Shown piece after piece: positions 8,255-62,880 of a stretch of 64,000 nt of DNA. The notes below the pieces were generated by a model. That model was not told the origin of the DNA. It worked only from the letters and a program-made list of their open reading frames with translations, and searched no databases. Source of the stretch: Ulota crispa. Taxonomy: Eukaryota > Streptophyta > Bryopsida > Orthotrichales > Orthotrichaceae. The DNA is taken from NCBI GenBank assembly GCA_963920765.1, contig OY987243.1:7564001-7628000 (forward strand). Reading direction: 5' to 3'. A program made the translations under genes and the position numbers. The stretch's first letter is position 1. Every line of letters starts with the position of its first letter.

Positions 8255-8392
8255 CCACATGGGGGACATGGCGCATGGGGGACATGAGCGCATGGGAGAC
8301 ATGGGCGCATGGGGGCCATGGGATGGTTAGAATTTCTTTTAAAGATTATACTCAGGCCTGCATTTACCTTGGTAAATGGGTTTACAGGACTC
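8255..8392. repeat. ATG-rich minisatellite plus a shared 45-bp segment
   Basis: About four units of 16-18 bp of the form GCGCATGGGGGACATG (8255-8322), followed at 8345-8392 by a segment containing CATTTACCTTGGTAAATGGG. The same segment next to CCATG-rich simple sequence occurs inverted at 31145-31240, so the two loci belong to one repeat family. Confidence 0.7.
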
Positions 8393-54008: not shown

Positions 54009-54038
54009 TTAACAATAAAGTATGACAGATTATTGGAA

Positions 54039-55461
54039 GTTACACTACAATACTCTCTTTTAACCAATTAGATTGAGCTGCTTCACTAGACATTGACATA
54101 TCAATGGCAGTTGCACCACAATAATCTCTTAGCCAGTTAACCCCTAAAGGACCAATTGTCCCCTGAGGGGATAGGTGGTATTTTGGGCATGTACTTACAA
54201 CTAAACTACTTTGTATGATTTTTTGAAACTTTTATGGAAGATGAGGAATTCAAAGACCTATGTGGGCATCTAATTTTTTCTTCATTCCAACATTTATTGA
54301 AGAAGTTATGCATGAATTTCTAAAAAACAGTGGAGATTGGGCAACCAATAACTTTTCTAAAAATAACATTTTTTCAAACTAAAAATCTGAAATTGGTTCT
54401 TTAGATTTATACATATGTGGAGAGCTTTGAATCATTGAATTTCAATTTATGAGTGAAAAGTTTTAGTTTGCGGGCAAGTACAAAACTCCCATACCTCCAT
54501 TCCTTTTGCCTTTTGTGCTTTACTTTTTTGTGCTCTTTGTGAATTTATTTTTTGACTTTTTTTTCCCTTGTTGTAGTAGACTAAGATTCTTTGATTTTTA
54601 CCATTTGGATCAAAGTAATTCACATTTCATAATTTTACATAAATCCTCTGATTTTGCCTAGTGTATATGCAAATTTGATGGTCTTACGGCATTGTAGGAT
54701 TTTACAAAATATGATTCACACCTCCAATTCATTTGAAAATTCTCCCACACTTACCTAACTTGGTCTTCTACATGGAAAAAATAAACCTCACATTTTTGTA
54801 GAGCATTTTTTTATATTTAGAGGTAATCAAAGGCTTCTGAAATTTTTGGGCAGCAGGGAAAAAACTTTTTTTTTTTCACTTTGAAAGTCAATATCTCACT
54901 CCTCTACGTGTAGAATGAGTTGATTTTTTTTTCCACAAGTACCTTCCATAGTCTAGGGCAAAATCTTACAATTGGATTTCCAAAAATACTTATTTTTCCT
55001 ACATTTGTATTCATTCCCCCAAAAGTGGCAATTTTCAGTAACTTTCACTAAGAAAAGGGCTTGGTCTTTTAGGGGTTAAAATGCAGATGCATTCTTTTTT
55101 ATATATACTAGATTACGTATAGGTTGTACCAACGGATTGATAGCATGATGAATCAACTTTATGCCACATCACCCCCTATCCATGTACCCCCTCTATCTTT
55201 GTGTTTCCTATCTCCATGCCCTTCTATCTTGTGCCCTATAAATTTTACTTTATTTCATTTATAAATTTAATTAAATTTGTATTCTACTCTATTTTACTTT
55301 TCATCCAATTTGAGATTCTTTTATATATACTAGATATCAAAAAGTACATCCACATTTTGATTAGCTGAGAGAGTGTTGTGGTGCAACTGCCAATGACTTG
55401 TTGTTAATGTCTGGTGAAGTGGCTCAATCTAATTAGTTTAGAGAAAGTGATGTGGTGTAAC
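54039..55461. mobile_element. Foldback-type element split by a TTAA element
   Basis: Inverted arms at about 54039-54134 and 55363-55461 share GTTACACyACA, AATTAGATTGAGC, CTTCACyAGACATT and TGGCAGTTGCACCACAA. The D element at 54137-55079 lies between them. Ends are not fixed, and I cannot name the superfamily. Confidence 0.6.
54137..55079 (+). mobile_element. TTAA-bracketed element, subfamily D copy 5
   Basis: The element proper is 54141-55075 (935 bp), with TTAA at 54137-54140 and 55076-55079. Left end CCCCTAAAGGACCAATTG with a hairpin TCCCC-TGA-GGGGA; right end GGGCTTGGTCTTTTAGGGG. The best preserved complete copy of subfamily D. Non-coding. Confidence 0.9.
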
Positions 55462-55483
55462 TTGCAATGACCAGTTACGTTAT

Positions 55484-55835
55484 TGTCACGTGATGTGGCA
55501 TCGTGACTATGCCACATCGAATGTATGTTATTAGTGGATGATTTTTGTTTTTAGTAGTTTTGGGAAAGGTTAGGGCCTTTGGCATCTCATTCCATTAGGC
55601 ACCTCATTTGAGGCCACTTAGGGTTTGGGGTTAGCTAAGGCACGATACTTCCTTGACTTGACATTCTTTGTCAAGTCAAGTCTTGTGAGGTGTTTTTGAA
55701 AGAGAGTACTCTTGCTGTGTTTTTTTGAGTTTTATATTATCTTCCACGTTTCTCCTTGCACTCTTGGATTCTCTTGTGAGCGAAGTGAGAGGTAGCTTGA
55801 CTGACCCTTAAGTGCTTAGATTTCGTATCTTAACA
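55484..55835 (+). repeat. 5' LTR
   Basis: 352 bp from TGTCACGTGATGTGG to GTATCTTAACA, so it starts TG and ends CA. Defined by alignment with the solo LTR at 3617-3981. It contains TTAGGGTTT at 55618-55626, conserved in both copies. Confidence 0.85.
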
Positions 55836-55837
55836 AT

Positions 55838-55851
55838 TGGCAAAGAATCCC
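55838..55851 (+). promoter_or_regulatory. Candidate primer-binding site
   Basis: TGGCAAAGAATCCC begins two bases after the LTR. It starts with TGG, complementary to the CCA tail of a tRNA, as such sites do. Which tRNA would pair is not known to me. Confidence 0.45.
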
Positions 55852-57590
55852 ATTTTTGTTTTACTTGTTGAATCTTTGTAGTTTACCGAGATTTGAGTTT
55901 GCTTGAGTTTTTAATTCCAAATTTATGATTGAATGAGTATGAACGCGTTGTTTTTGTTGAGAGTTGTGAGTTTGATCTATACGGAACCATGCGAAAGCCT
56001 TGAGCTGAGCCGTACGAGATCCGTGAGCAGTGCGGGAGCTCCGAAGACGCGCAGCACGCAGCAGCGACGGAGTAAGCCGGCAGCAAGACAACCGGCACAC
56101 AAAATTAGGGTTTTGACAAAGCTGCGGGGATCGGCGTTGTGCTGCGGGAGAGCGCCGGAACGACCAGCGCGGGAGACGCAGCGGAGCTCCGGGCGTTTTA
56201 GGGTTTCGAAGGCAACGGGCAGGGTCGCGCGGGGAAAGTGCTGGCAGGCGACGTCGACGAGCAACGCAGCGTCCGGCCACCAACCACAGACAGGAGCTCG
56301 ACGTGAAAGTTGAGGTTGCGGGGCCTGGTCGAGCGGGAGCCGCGGGCGACGTCGACGACGGAACGGCAGACTGAGCAGCAGGTAATGACCAAAAATTAGG
56401 GTTCCAGTTTCGGAAGCCGTGAACGGGGCCGAAGTCCGAAGGCGGGCCGCGGCAGCGTCGACGCAGCCGCGCAGCTGGAACGGGGAGCAGAGGAACGGCG
56501 ACGGAATTTTAGGGTTTCGAACTGGGGTGAGAAGGCGCGCGGTCGCAGCGCAGCGACGACGGCCAGAGTTGCCCCCAACGGTGCAGCAATTCGGGGAGCA
56601 GTGAGGGCCAGAGCCAGCTCGGCTCACGAGCCAGCAGGGCGATGCCCTCCGGTGGCCAGGGTTTCCTTCCAGGGTCCCTTCCTAAGCTTTCAACCCCAAA
56701 TTTTCACCTATCTCTTACTATTTTTCTCAAATTCAGCCTTGTTTCCCACAACCAGTAGACCGTGAGTACTTAAGGATGTGTTTCTCATCTTCACATTCAC
56801 AGATCTCTCAGATAAATCTGAGGGAGTGGAACTTCAGAAATTTGGTTGGATCTCATTAAAAATTTGGTTCACATAAATCATTTGAATCTTTTGAAATCAA
56901 CCCAATGGACTTTCATATCACCTAAATTCCACAACCAGTTTTTCCAAAAGAATTGTTAAATTTCTTGTGAGACTGGTGGACGTGGAATTTGGAGGCATTG
57001 GATTTGCAGGTTGTTGCATTCTACTTTGTCACTTATCACCAACAGTAAGTGTTTGTTGGTTGTGTGATTTTCTTTTTTGTATATTTGTCGTTGGATGATA
57101 GTTTTGGGCCAGAAAGAGGGAACTCATGTCAGTGACCATATTTTCTTACACGTAATCTTTTGACGGAATGGTAGTAACCTCTTAGAAAAGTGGCAGAAGA
57201 TTAACACGTTTTGATCCTTGCTATGAAACAACGTGGTCCATTTTTTAGACATTATTGGTTGGATGTGCAAGTTTCATTTCTGCTTATTTGTTGTTTGGGG
57301 AGGAAGATCTAAGATTTGTGTTTTGGATTTTGTCCTTTAGTACTTTTTCCGTTTGCGAACATTGTTCTATTTTGTATTTTTGTTGAGGGTGGGCATACTA
57401 TAGAAGTGAGGTTAGGTTGATTGTCGGCGGGACCTTTCTGTATGTATTGGACATGTGCTTACCGCATGTCACTATCGGTGAATCACACAGCTTGCTGGTG
57501 ATTGCAGGTCAGATTGCCTAAGCGTTTAAATAATTGCAGGTACCCAAGTAGTCTGTTTATGGTGCAAACTAAGAATTGATATTATCGGTC
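55852..57590 (+). other. Retrotransposon leader with a GC-rich island
   Basis: About 1.7 kb between the LTR and gag. The part at about 55985-56660 is strikingly GC-rich, many times CG-containing, against an AT-rich background. It holds four (T)TTAGGGTT(T) motifs: 56105-56113, 56198-56206, 56396-56403 and 56509-56517. ORFs here on both strands (up to 216 codons, minus strand) are Arg/Ala-rich products of GC-rich DNA and resemble no known protein. The rest is ordinary AT-rich sequence. Confidence 0.6.
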
Positions 57591-59290
57591 TTCCTTATCA
57601 GACTACTTGGAGGGTGACCACACTGAAGACTTTGGGCCAACGGTAGATACCAACGAGGCTTTTCAGCTTGATTCGACGTCGGATACTATTAGTAGACTTC
57701 GGATCTTGAGTGTAGGCACGTTTGATGACATGAAGGACAATCATTGAAGTTTAGTGTGTAATTGGTTCTCAGAACAAGCAGAGGTGATTTTCCTTCATGA
57801 TTAGAAGCTTCACTTCCGCACATGAGTGAAGGAAATTTGCCAGAGGTCGTCTAATTTCAATGATTGGTTTGTCTTTGAGCTTCTGCCTCAACATTTGGAA
57901 TTTGAGGCCCTTTAAACTTATGAACAGTGGAGTCATACTCACCAGTTTGAGTTTCTCAAGGGGTAGCTTTACTGAAAGACGCGAGTAGAGCTTGTTTTAG
58001 CTCTCAAGGATGGTGCAGTAGCTGCATTAATTTCCTCAACTATGAATGTGAAAGAGAGACCTAGCAAAGGTGAGGTAGCGGCCTTTGAAGATTCTAAGGG
58101 CAAAGCGATAGCTCTGGAACCTATAATAGAAAGTGCCATACTACATTTTATGTCACATATAGCTCAGGCTACTTAGACGGCACTGGCCACAGTTGGTGCT
58201 TCATTTCGGTTCGATCCACTAGCGCAGTTCATTGCGCATTTGGAGGTGAAGTATAGCGGATTTCGTTGTAATCAGATGCAGCGTATTTAAGACTTCTAAA
58301 GAGAGAAAGAGAATACGCCACACATCATGTACACTTGTTTGGCACGGTTTGCTGTTGAATCTGATAGAATTTTTACTGAAAGTCAGTTTGTGAAGATTTT
58401 TTTGTCAAAAATCAACAAGCAGTTGTGGGATTTAGCATCCCCTTGAATTATCCTTGGTTATGAAAATAGAGCTACTTTAGCCTAAGCTTTTGCTGTGGTT
58501 GAGAAGTGTGACTGCGGTCTTTGTAATCATGGCGCTATGGATATGATTTCTTCCATGACAGATTCTTCCAAATCTAAGAAGAGTCTTGCTGTCACTAGTA
58601 GTCTAGCGGACATTAAACTAGAGAGGACCTTGCATTGTTGGAAATGTGGACAAGATGGATATGCCAAAAAGGATTATCCAAAGAAATCTAAAACTTCTTC
58701 TCAGTCATCCAAATCTACTGAAAATGAAGAGGTGAAGAATGAAGCTAAGGTCAAGAAGAAGGCTTTAAAATGCAACCATTGTGGTGACATTAACCATGAT
58801 GAGGATCACTGCTTTCAGCTTCATCCTGAGATAAAATCAGCTAATTTTGTGGCTGCTAAGTCACAAAGGGAGAAGACTCTTGAGGCCAAGGTAGCAAAGT
58901 TGGAGCAGAAGCTTAAGACCTCTGTATCATTGGCTCAAACTTCTAATTTTGGAACATCTTTCAAGAAAATAATTGGTTATTCTAGCTCTGAGCATTACAT
59001 ATTTGGTACATCTGGAGAATTAGCAGCTGCAGCTGCTACCCGATCTCAGACTACTAGAGGATCAGTTGGTTCACCAATGCCGGATGTCATTGCTGTCTCG
59101 CGCGCATGCCATAGTAGTCTTGCTGATTCTATTAGCCAGACACGCATATTATTATCTTTTGATTTGGCTGATACTGTTGCCACGGGTAAATGTTAATTGT
59201 TGCACTTCCACATCTTGGAAGTTCTGCCTCACCTGATTTACTCCAAACCATGATTTTTAAAGTTATACAAATATTATTATTTTTTTGCTT
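57591..59290 (+). pseudogene. gag of the Ty3/gypsy element, decayed
   Basis: Structural protein that would package the RNA. Several stops interrupt the frame before 58495; from there 233 codons are open. Two zinc knuckles lie at about 58635-58680 and 58770-58812. The first, CWKCGQDGYAKKDY, has lost its His and last Cys, both to Tyr, each by one transition. The second, CNHCGDINHDEDHC, is a complete C-x2-C-x4-H-x4-C. A short coiled-coil stretch (KTLEAKVAKLEQKLK) follows. Confidence 0.85.
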
Positions 59291-59579
59291 AGAATTGATA
59301 GCACCTGGTTTTTAGGCCTCTAAAGTCTTTCATATGGTAGTACGTGTTTTAAATGAGAAGGTGGACATGTCACCTCTTTAGGTTTCTCAGACTGTTGCCG
59401 AGACCATTTCAATTTATAATTCAGAGGCTCAAACAAAGCTACAAACTAAGCTTGCAGCTGAAGCCATAGCAGTATTTAGTGAGCATGTGGATGTTCACAC
59501 ACCGCATCATTCTTCTATGGATGCGTCTCTAGCGATAGAAGCAGCTTATCTTGCTAACATTTTAACAAGATCTGCTAAA

Positions 59580-60030
59580 GAGCAATAGATTGTACACTCA
59601 AGTATTGTTTGTTTAGTAAACGACAATGGATGTTTGTGGTTTTACGTGGTGAGAAGCATGAACATTGAGCTACTCCATTTAATGTGATGATGGATTCAAG
59701 TGCCCAGCTAGTTATGATTGGCAAACATTTGGCGGAAAAACTTGGTTTGACTGCTAAGGATTTGGAACCATGTCCGTTCACTATTATCTTTTCAGTCGGA
59801 GGCACAGAATCTGCTACAAGCTATACCAAAAAACATCTACAGCTGATATTTAAAGTAGGGAGAAACCTACATTTTTTTTTTTTTTTGAAGTGTGCTGTCA
59901 CCAATGCTACCAACTATGTTATTTTACTTGGTCAGCAGGCACTTTATCATATTAGTTTTGGTATAGATAACTGGACCAAAGAAGCGTGGATTCGACTAAG
60001 ATGGTCTTCTGGCAATGGTCGGTAGGAGCT
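59580..60030 (+). pseudogene. Aspartic protease domain, decayed
   Basis: The catalytic region reads FNVMMDSSAQLVMIGKHLAEKLGL. The active-site Asp-Ser-Gly has become Asp-Ser-Ser, a single G-to-A change. The flap region and a later VILLGQQAL motif are recognisable. It sits between gag and the methyltransferase as expected for protease in gag-pol. Confidence 0.75.
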
Positions 60031-60339
60031 GATCCCAGTGCCATTTGCAGCTTTAACTATGTCTATGATTGCTGACGCTATGTTCAGATACTCGGCATTT
60101 TTGGAGAGCCTTCCATTTGGTCTTTGACTTTTAGAGGAGACCTTGGCGTTTATTATTGTATATCCAGAGGACCGGCGAGAGTCACTAATCTTGGTGGCTA
60201 CACCTCAGCATTCCAAAGATGCTTTACTATTTTAGACTACCTATTAAGAGTTGTCCCAACGATGTATGGACATTGTAGCTTCTATACCTTTTGTCTCTTT
60301 GGCTTCTTCTCCCATCAATTTATGTTTAGAGGACTAATT

Positions 60340-61310
60340 CATTGGCGTCCATCTCCAACTGGAATCACTTTTGTGGAGCTTTTTGAAGGTATTGGCAACG
60401 GATTTGCAGCCATTTTAGAGGCTGGACTCATGGTTCGCTGATATATTTACGTCGATAATAGTTATGTGCCTATCGAGCAGCACAATACCATTTTCAAAGG
60501 TTGATGGCTCAATTTTCTAAGCAGTCGCTTCCATCATCCATTCATGGATGTTTTGGCCATTTTCATAGAGATGTTACCTTTATTAGTGATGAAAATTTGA
60601 GGAGGTTGGGCCATGTTGATTTGTTTGTGGTAGGATGGCCTTGTTAAGGTCATTTACGAGCAGATGCAGATCAAGGGTTATATGACCCAAAACTTAGCCA
60701 TTTTATAGAGTTGGTGAGGATTACACAACGGTGGTGTAACCATCAAATCACTCCACCTGGGTATATTTTTGAGAATGTACCTCCATTGGGCAATGATTGG
60801 TCAAAGGTGATGGGAGATGGCCATTATATTTATAAAATTTTTGGCCCTCTAACCTTTGTGGATGTTGCTACATTGGGATCATTTATCCATTGACCACAAT
60901 GGCTTTGGACAAACATGATGTCACATTCCATGTTAACTAAGGCGTTTTTACAAGTTATCAAACCTTTAGGGCGAGTTGTGAGAAATATTTTGGATGACCA
61001 CATGAAACCATTGGCATTAGCCAAAAATGATTCATTTCCTTTTGCTTTGGCCAACAATATTAAGAAGTCTTGAGAGGCATTACCAACATTTGTTATATAT
61101 CTTAAATCCTTTGCATTTTGAGCATGTGGACCTGGCATGGTGTGGGATTCTCACAGTTACACTTACAAGGAACCTAATGCGGATAAGCGAGAGCATGCCT
61201 TAGATTTTTCTACTGACACTACAGCAGCTCATGATTTCACTGAAGGTTTACGACACTTTGTATTGAATCAAGCTACTCATACCATGATTTGAACTATTGA
61301 CATTTGTCTT
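60340..61310 (+). pseudogene. Cytosine-C5 DNA methyltransferase domain inside pol, decayed
   Basis: Transfers methyl from S-adenosylmethionine to C5 of cytosine in DNA. Motifs in order: I, FVELFEGIGNGFAAILEAGL (glycine-rich cofactor loop, at 60382-60402); II, YIYVDN; IV, VDLFVVGWPC with the catalytic Pro-Cys at 60639-60644; VI, FENVPPLG with Glu-Asn-Val at 60771-60779; VIII, a HRxR-like site at 60888-60899, where one Arg is now TGA and the other Gln, followed by WLWTN; then a late KEPNADKREHAL segment and a motif X-like GLRHFVLNQAT at about 61245-61290. The ENV and PC context resembles the Dnmt3/DRM and single-domain C5 type. There is a frameshift between 60441 and 60540, a stop straight after the catalytic Cys (60645-60647) and several more stops, so this copy cannot make the enzyme. 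It lies downstream of protease and upstream of reverse transcriptase, in the same frame as reverse transcriptase for its larger part. Confidence 0.88.
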
Positions 61311-61689
61311 GTTGTTCGACAGCGATATGGCCTTTTGTTTATTCTAGAGGCAGATAACAATAGTCAGGGAGCAATGGGAATGCCAATTACTACAATTGAA
61401 GAAGATTCTGTGCTTTGTTTTCATTTTCAGCCGCAACTTTTGGATGAGCTTCTAGCTCAAAAAGCTTTTGCTACTTTAGCCTTAAGTAGCGATGTTGGAG
61501 GCAATGATATTGTCTCTCCTTCTTCTGATTAGCAACCACAAATTGTGTCCACATCTGGTAGTGGTCTATTGATAGAGAAGACTACCACGGAGTTTGATGA
61601 TTGGCCTTTGAGTTTAGATTATCATCTTACAAATATTGAGGCACATAGAATGTGAGCATTCATTCACTCATACCAAAGTTGTTTTTCTT

Positions 61690-62540
61690 TTAACTTTTAT
61701 AACTTGGAGGGTTATAAAGGCAAGTCCATTCACATTCAATTTGAGGATGATAATTCTATATTTTGACGTCTTTATAAGCTCAGTAGTTCTGAGAAGACTA
61801 GTGTTTAAGTCCGATATTATAAACTTTTAGCTGCGGGGTTAATTAGGTTATCCAACGACAAATACGCTTATGCTATGGTAATACCTTCTAAGAAGAATAT
61901 CTTTGGGAATTGGACTGAGAAGAGGATGTGTGGAGATTATTGTATGATCAATAAAAAAATCAAATCAGACCGCTATCCTATGTCAACGCTAGAGGAGTTA
62001 TTTGATACAATAGGATCAGCTCAAATTTTCAGTACATTGGATTTGAGATCTGGATACTGCTAGTTGCCACTATAATTGGAAAATCGTGTAAAGACTACAT
62101 TTTGAGGAGTGGATCAAGATGGTAGAAATCTACTCTATCATTGAAAATTTCTTTCATTTGGTCTTAAAAATGCACATACTGAATTTCAGAGGATGATGGA
62201 CTGTATTTTGACTCGATTGCCATTTGCTCGGTGTTACATTGATGATGTTATTGTCTTTAATAGTTCACCTCAGAATCATGTAAGGCATTTGCAAACCATT
62301 TTTGAGCGATTGCATGAGTAGAATTTGCGCTTGCATTATGGCAAGTGCAAATTTTTCCATGACCGGTTGTTATACTTGGGACTCATAATAGTTTCAGGGA
62401 GAATTGGCGTACAGCAGGCGAAGGTGGATGCTCTTTAAAAGCTTCCAGCATCTTGTGATGTTCCAAGATTGCGTGCATTTTTTGGCCTAGTAAATTATTA
62501 TTGCCGTTTTGTTAAGAATTTCAGCTTGATTGCTAAGCCT
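61690..62540 (+). pseudogene. Reverse transcriptase domain, decayed
   Basis: Ty3/gypsy type. Recognisable blocks: the SKKNIFGNWTEKRMCGDY region, RYPMSTLEELFDTIGSAQIF, STLDLRSGY, then after stops FGLKNAHTEFQRMMD, the catalytic YIDD (CYIDDVIVF, about 62235) and LRAFFGLVNYYCRFVKNFSL near the end. In-frame stops at 62061 and 62073, and further ones at positions where Gln or Trp is expected. Confidence 0.9.
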
Positions 62541-62880
62541 TTGACTATGCTCACTGGCAATGATCAGATTTGGACATGGAGCCGTGAGCAGCAGTTGGCT
62601 TTTGATATGTTAAAGCAGAAGTTGGGCTTAACACCCATGCTTTGACATCCTGATATTACTAGACATTTCCGATTGCACATGAATTGAAGTGCAGCGAGAT
62701 TAAGTGTAGTTTTGACTCAGAAAAATGAAGAAGGACAAGAATATGTTATTGCAATTGCTTTAAAGAGTAACAACTTAGCTGAATTCAACTATTTGTTTTA
62801 TGAAGAAGAAACTTTAGCTGCAATATGGGTCACTTTACATTTTTATCCTTATTTCTATGGACAGCAATGTCCTGATGAAG
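62541..62880 (+). pseudogene. RNase H domain, truncated
   Basis: Follows reverse transcriptase without a gap (PLTMLTGNDQIWTWSREQQLAF). The region where the first catalytic Asp belongs is damaged by a stop. The later EETLAAIWVTLHFYPYFYG block is clear, and similarity then ends at about 62870. No integrase follows. Confidence 0.85.

Follow-up and report, generated by a model that had tools for sequence, protein, structure and literature searches.

A Ty3/gypsy retrotransposon family of Ulota crispa with a C5-cytosine methyltransferase upstream of reverse transcriptase and split terminal repeats

As a rule, transposons are on the receiving end of cytosine methylation. The canonical plant Ty3/gypsy element has a Ty3-like reverse transcriptase (RT), the order protease (PR)-RT-RNase H-integrase (IN), a DDE integrase, and two whole long terminal repeats (LTRs). 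DIRS-type elements are not known to leave a target duplication, and to our knowledge the repeat layout A-coding-B-A-B is otherwise known from elements with a tyrosine recombinase. Some DNMT3 members reside in streptophyte and dinoflagellate retrotransposons (PMC12344493). One such element, KnitGypsy-Dnmt3, is a gypsy element of the alga Klebsormidium nitens with Dnmt3 in its Pol ORF; it is described as intronless and multicopy, with repeats "the same as that of a DIRS retrotransposon" and a C5-cytosine methyltransferase (MTase) under purifying selection (PMC5890265). The same 2018 study concluded that the K. nitens lineage had acquired it independently, and observed no MTase activity in yeast, a result that its authors call inconclusive (PMC5890265). 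The MTase of SymbioDIRS-Dnmt3, from dinoflagellates, methylates CG de novo in yeast (PMC5890265). The description of these two elements bears out the statement, in the original prediction for the DNA analyzed here, that MTase capture had precedents in charophytes and dinoflagellates.

We set beside these systems a window from Ulota crispa, by which we mean the whole stretch of 64,000 nucleotides analyzed (contig OY987243.1, positions 7,564,001 to 7,628,000). Positions 55484-62864 of the window hold a dead, 3'-truncated Ty3/gypsy element with gag, protease, MTase, RT, and the start of RNase H. The region 60340..61310, to which attention had been drawn, is only a part of this far longer element. 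Its features are as follows.

55484..55835, + strand: 5' terminal repeat A (A1), 352 bp, starting TGTCACGTGATG; the 5' end of the element
55836..55850, + strand: primer-binding-site-like stretch TTGGCAAAGAATC, directly 3' of A1, putative in function
58486..59193, + strand: C-terminal part of gag, with a CCHC-type knuckle (58636-58680) and a second Cys/His cluster
59630..60286, + strand: retropepsin-like protease and linker, in frame 2, placed by the alignment of protein P0121
60319..61292, + strand: C5-cytosine DNA methyltransferase domain with its motifs in canonical order, placed by the alignment of relatives
61293..61529, + strand: C-terminal tail of the MTase product; the alignment reaches 61508, and the tail is common to relatives with the same endpoint
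61530..61538, + strand: conserved stop in the readthrough context TAG CAA CCA (TAG at 61530-61532)
61533..62585, + strand: RT (core 61914-62585), in the frame of the MTase
62586..62864, + strand: beginning of RNase H; the match to longer copies stops near 62864

A1 of the window matches copies L072 and L074 and the A2 copies, and the primer-binding-site-like stretch after A1 was read by eye in three copies. In gag, the P0121 alignment covers 58804-59187. The zf-CCHC match in the L069 homologue of gag (E 0.0015) is below the cut-off, as is the match of positions 59669-60022 to Pfam gag-asp_proteas (7.3e-5, curated cut-off). Relatives of the MTase align at 60319-60465 in frame 1 and at 60468-61481 in frame 0; the match to P0033 has an E value of 6e-112, and that to P0015, at 60474-61508, one of 1e-118. 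RT and RNase H align at 61533-62843 in frame 0. The alignment of relatives to the window therefore confirms that the MTase lies between the protease and the RT of one gypsy gag-pol region.

The protease is in frame 2, the first 150 bases of the MTase are in frame 1, and the rest is in frame 0, so that two frame changes precede the main part of the MTase. Since both the RT and the MTase from 60468 on are in frame 0, most of the MTase lies in the RT frame. The claim that the two domains share a frame thus holds for the larger part of the MTase, but a conserved stop, the TAG at 61530-61532, separates it from the RT. Seven in-frame stops and one frameshift interrupt the MTase of the window copy, which is dead. 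Its truncation has removed the integrase, a PHD finger, and the B-A-B repeats of the 3' end; the genome search for PHD fingers gave no place near the window RT. An Rfam scan of the window found nothing at the gathering score.

Two further observations concern the surroundings of A1. The leader between A1 and gag, at about 55970-56680, has a GC content of 0.60-0.66 compared with 0.39 in the coding part and long open frames on both strands, and blastn aligns it to the corresponding part of neither of two other copies, although its surroundings do match. A pair of inverted repeats (about 122 bp long, 78% alike) lies at 54012-54133 and 55364-55486, the second touching the start of A1; the pair is possibly a DNA transposon beside the insertion.

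How far the MTase belongs to the element can be judged from the other copies in the genome. Searching with the MTase DNA (best 40 of 90 candidates scored), we found at least 39 other places with 76-80% identity over at least 936 of the 971 bases, so the MTase is not there by chance. A 214-residue piece of the MTase gave 125 matches in the genome, and an RT piece gave 151 matches among those listed (best 150 of 785 candidates scored). After fragments were merged, the RT matches listed fell into 94 places with family RT (at least 45% identity) and 49 with other gypsy RT (at most 41%). Of these 94 family places, 87 have an MTase on the same strand no more than 3 kb upstream; of the 49 others, 0 do. 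Conversely, family RT lies downstream of 88 of 93 MTase places among the RT matches listed. For this count 95 of the 125 MTase matches were used, the other 30 being smaller pieces beside a used one. At wider distances, again among the RT matches listed, the linkage is 88/94 (6 kb) and 89/94 (20 kb): two of the seven RT places without an MTase within 3 kb have one farther upstream, within 20 kb. Two exceptions were read. L062 is a deletion derivative with breakpoints at window positions 60491 and 61637, so the start of the MTase is still kept there; in L050, blastn finds nothing of the element upstream of window position 61579.

These counts bear directly on the alternative that one old gypsy copy acquired the MTase by recent secondary insertion or as a fragment of a host gene. 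That the window copy is broken, with its MTase split over two frames, would fit such an event. However, 87 of the 94 family RT places among the matches listed have the MTase at the same position and distance, and it occurs in liverworts and in other public relatives as well. The contrast of 87/94 with 0/49 among those matches refutes a secondary insertion, and we find this alternative scarcely credible. The same contrast answers the original prediction's own proviso, that family copies lacking the domain would speak against it; that search brought no refutation. Its statement that the MTase is not simply a neighboring gene also stands, given the constant site upstream of the RT across the family (87/94 among the matches listed). 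The MTase is a trait of the whole retrotransposon family, beyond the window copy. Nor is it a pseudogene of a host gene: the host Dnmt3 (L006, L007), DRM (L002, L005), and MET1 (L116) genes are distinct multi-exon or permuted genes.

All 29 host copies examined are broken; none has an uninterrupted MTase, and in 20 of them the MTase is still in one frame. (This count and the MTase codon comparison below omit L011 and L022, which duplicate L010 and L021.) For two elements read at both ends, the K2P distance between A1 and A2 is 0.128 and 0.127, with transitions to transversions of 28:12 and 34:6. We read this as a sign of old insertions that decayed partly through deamination of methylated cytosine. 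When the diverged copy L070 is set against 28 copies of the main group, codon position 3 carries 2.10 times as many transversions in the MTase as positions 1 and 2 do on average; in the RT the factor is 2.72. The corresponding ratios inside the main group, whose differences mostly reflect decay after insertion, are 1.23 and 1.28. These ratios are descriptive and not independent tests, as pairs share sequences. The duplicates form two pairs in mirror orientation with equal scores, L010/L011 (C3:32753337- and 32773849+) and L021/L022 (C4:9402535- and 9413243+, all genome G000). The mirror center of the C4 pair lies inside repeat A. Both pairs are either recent palindromic duplications or assembly artifacts.

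The motifs of the window MTase are FEGIG (motif I, 60382-60396), GWPC (IV, 60633-60644), ENV (VI, 60771-60779), and WTN (VIII, 60906-60914). Column counts in an alignment of 94 sequences give the order I-IV-VI-VIII-IX-X, which is canonical and unpermuted, and so the predicted succession of C5-methyltransferase motifs was recovered: I, IV with its Pro-Cys, VI with ENV, VIII, and X. Motif IV is conserved, with P in 64 of 67 and C in 65 of 68 family sequences that have letters there. PF00145 is above the cut-off in 10/10 relatives of one set and in 8/9 of another, whose tenth member is bacterial. The profile and fold are closest to DNMT3A/3B, as judged from a family model with an unpermuted Dnmt3-like fold; this structure model was built from 94 sequences, an earlier one from 17 having been poor (pLDDT 55). 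DRM is absent among the 50 matches listed. Identity with DRM was rejected: DRM needs the permuted order VI-X then I-IV, as in the host DRMs L002 and L005, and the element MTase is unpermuted. Of the host genes, C4:24075336 and C7:7376917 (genome G000) are multi-exon Dnmt3 genes, and C1:38442224 and C1:1116374, which match the same part of PF00145, may be further ones.

The likeness to DNMT3 could nevertheless reflect only a shared core, with the MTase taken from a bacterial or phage C5-MTase and not from plant Dnmt3. The family profile scores six bacterial Dcm-like proteins at 63.8-82.5 bits and two host Dnmt3 exon sets at 31.2 and 40.4, and the phage family phrog_116 matches P0015 at 2.7e-24. 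A 30-row tree has all 20 element MTases on the same side of a branch with 100/98 support, and the elements group with bacteria at 86/74, which is not firm; their placement relative to Dnmt3 is likewise not firm. We regard this origin as somewhat unlikely. A search for viral carriers gave 38 pattern matches in viral_contigs, none of which was confirmed. P0015 itself is named as a protein of a bacterial metagenome-assembled genome. Because it is 63% identical to L070 over 73% of the query, we take the bacterial label to be contamination.

Protein searches found relatives among public sequences both with and without an organism name. P0035 and P0036 carry protease (PF13650) and MTase in one 715-residue frame, both above the Pfam cut-offs. 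P0056 is recorded from the liverwort Marchantia polymorpha (MARPO_0008s0049) and P0045 from the liverwort Calypogeia fissa; in these two the MTase is the sole Pfam domain found. P0068 joins MTase and RT (RVT_1 5.8e-22) in one frame, so that the proposed Pfam check for both domains on one ORF (PF00145 with RVT_1) came out positive in a public relative. Two NCBI-sourced proteins have other arrangements, RNase H followed by MTase in P0130 and MTase followed by an integrase zinc-binding domain in P0103; they show a second placement of the same MTase family in a gypsy-like pol. No hit named as K. nitens appeared in three protein searches (in one, the best 120 of 207 were listed, and most hits were unnamed). 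Our search of open-licence papers turned up no description of such an element from a moss or a liverwort, which is weak evidence of absence.

The rest of pol is that of a Ty3/gypsy element. The L010 homologue of the RT matches RVT_1 at 1e-25, and the best PDB matches of the element RT are Ty3 RT (3.8e-41) and Ty3 Gag-Pol (2.4e-40), the next type following at 7.8e-22; the RT is thus of the Ty3 type. In L069/L071, RNase H (1.5e-17, RT_RNaseH_2 in the L069 homologue) and rve (1.9e-8) are above the cut-off and H2C2 (0.002) is below it. The domain order in these copies is PR-RT-RNase H-IN with a DDE integrase. After the integrase comes an open piece of 125 residues that matches Pfam PHD at 1.2e-7, above the cut-off, with PHF12, UHRF1, and KDM5 among its best PDB matches. 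Among the RT matches listed, a PHD finger lies within 3.5 kb downstream of 82 of the 94 family RTs and of 0 of the 49 other RTs, and within 9 kb downstream of 89 of the 94 family RTs; this linkage used 97 of 130 PHD matches.

The stop between MTase and RT is also a family character. The codon that follows the MTase tail in 43 distinct host copies, including the window, is TAG (36), TAA (4), AAG (2), or TAC (1). The codon next to it is CAA in 40/43 and TAA in 3/43, and the third is of the form YYA in 40/43. The diverged copy L070 reads TAG CAA TCA. Among proteins, 12 of 21 reach a GG pair near the end of the tail, and all 12 stop exactly eight residues later; a 13th, P0024, has a different tail. 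UAG CAR YYA has been termed a type I readthrough motif (PMC11166343). With a conserved stop of this type, translation probably yields mainly gag-protease-MTase, and RT-RNase H-integrase would arise as its readthrough extension. The leaky stop is not universal, because P0068 joins MTase to RT without one.

We found that the terminal repeats of the family are split. The layout is A-coding-B-A-B: one A of about 352 bp opens the element at its 5' end, and at the 3' end a B of about 97 bp stands on either side of a second A, as in the full copies L069 and L072 and L071, L074, and L075, on C3 and C2. A B-A-B query gave 40 hits, 33 of them complete or nearly so (from base 3 or before to base 532 or beyond, of 572); the others are five with A-B only, one partial, and one B-A without the last B. 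A 5' query that included 50 bp of window flank gave 39 hits outside the window, 33 of which continue past A into internal sequence. These 33 start at query positions 49-57, all within 6 bases of the A start at 51. Since A runs straight into internal sequence in 33/33, there is no B after A1. Nor is there a B end before A1 in any of the 13 flanks read (12 full copies and the window): the flanks match at 11-17 of 33 bases and never exceed the shuffled maximum of 17-20, compared with 29-33 of 33 at 10/10 internal B/A junctions.

The elements end in TG...CA with 4-bp target duplications. We compared the four bases before A with the four after B in 12 full and 5 solo A-B copies: they are identical in 7/17, match at three of four bases in 7/17, and match at fewer in 3/17; mismatched pairs gave 1 identical and 21 three-of-four among 272. 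One of the three failures (C5:15.77) was a script placement and reads CCAT/CCAT by eye; the other two fail. The termini and the short target-site duplication are thus those of Ty3/gypsy elements, whereas a single A (5') and a B-A-B array (3') stand in place of two whole direct LTRs. It could be argued that these are ordinary LTRs in decay, A-B at both ends with B lost after A1, and the solo remnants are indeed A-B, as a plain A-B LTR would leave. However, the direct passage from A to internal sequence in all 33 five-prime ends, the 13/13 flanks without a B end, the presence of B1 before A2 in 33 of the 40 three-prime hits, and the target duplications flanking A-start and B-end all argue against this explanation, which we consider very improbable.

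By eye, the B/A junction reads, with decay, CGACA-GC-TGTC, a palindrome of about 10 bp with two extra bases, and a purine run precedes B1 and the primer-site-like stretch follows A1. The palindromic junction (L069 near 8325-8340; L096-L105) resembles a circle junction. The primer-site-like CTTGGCAAA after A1 in L072 and L074 is complementary, by eye, to a hairpin arm TTTGCCAAG within A. Such complementarity of CTTGGCAAA and TTTGCCAAG would allow self-priming.

Our main reading, to which we give a probability of roughly 0.7, is that of a long-lived bryophyte-type Ty3/gypsy lineage that encodes gag-protease-MTase, a leaky UAG-CAA-YYA, and RT-RNase H-integrase-PHD, and whose MTase, made in gag-like excess, acts on the element's own cDNA. 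It builds on characters read from sequence: the domain order, the linkage, the conservation of the stop, the split repeats, the 4-bp target duplications, and the third-position excess in MTase codons when subfamilies are compared. Encoded ahead of the leaky stop, the MTase would reach gag-like excess. It might then be packaged with the capsid and methylate the cDNA or the new insertion, and this putative self-methylation may lower the damage to the host or mark the cDNA as self. The PHD finger may steer the integrase to chromatin. As for the repeats, we propose as a model only that reverse transcription would yield BA-coding-BA, that a circle would form, and that the integrase would cut the circular cDNA at the palindromic B/A junction to give A-coding-B-A-B. 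Alternatively, the conserved MTase might act on the host, by changing its epigenome or by competing with silencing, with the PHD finger aiding integration only. Both modules are related to chromatin, and an MTase made before the stop could act apart from the RT; on general grounds, however, selection on an element favors effects in cis, and we think action on the host unlikely.

If the reading of self-directed methylation is right, a jumping gene may itself set the chemical mark by which host cells normally silence it. An old and successful land-plant family carries the methylation writer itself and a likely chromatin reader, the PHD finger. This makes it testable whether retrotransposons methylate their own cDNA, whether MTase capture happened once or many times, and how an element with a DDE integrase and split terminal repeats replicates. 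More tentatively, one ancient streptophyte lineage, without repeated captures, may have carried a de novo-type MTase from algae to bryophytes, made it at gag level through the leaky stop, and methylated its own cDNA in particles, its DDE integrase opening a circle at the palindromic B/A junction and the MTase having moved between RNase H and integrase in some relatives.

Compared with canonical plant Ty3/gypsy elements, the Ulota crispa family shares the Ty3-like RT, the PR-RT-RNase H-IN order, and the DDE integrase, and differs in the MTase between PR and RT, the PHD finger after IN, and the split repeats. It is not a DIRS-type element with a tyrosine recombinase, since it has a DDE integrase and target duplications and shares the repeat layout only; no tyrosine recombinase was found among the Pfam matches of the element pieces scanned. 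With SymbioDIRS-Dnmt3, as published, it has in common a Dnmt3-type MTase in an RT polyprotein and A-coding-B-A-B repeats, but that element uses a tyrosine recombinase, whereas ours has a DDE integrase and 4-bp target duplications (PMC5890265). The closest known element is KnitGypsy-Dnmt3, to which we liken it by the published description and not by sequence: both have gypsy domains, an MTase in pol, and DIRS-like split repeats. Unlike it, the Ulota crispa element lives in a land plant and has liverwort relatives, and all of its copies examined are dead. It also has a readthrough-type stop between MTase and RT and a PHD finger, and neither the word readthrough nor the word PHD occurs in the main text of the KnitGypsy-Dnmt3 paper (PMC5890265). 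The structural traits of KnitGypsy-Dnmt3 in a land plant with liverwort relatives suggest, but do not show, that one older lineage joins the Klebsormidium and bryophyte elements. Thus, the Ulota crispa family is a variant of the KnitGypsy-Dnmt3 kind, with a new anatomy of a UAG-CAA-YYA readthrough-type stop, a PHD finger after the integrase, and split repeats with 4-bp target duplications.
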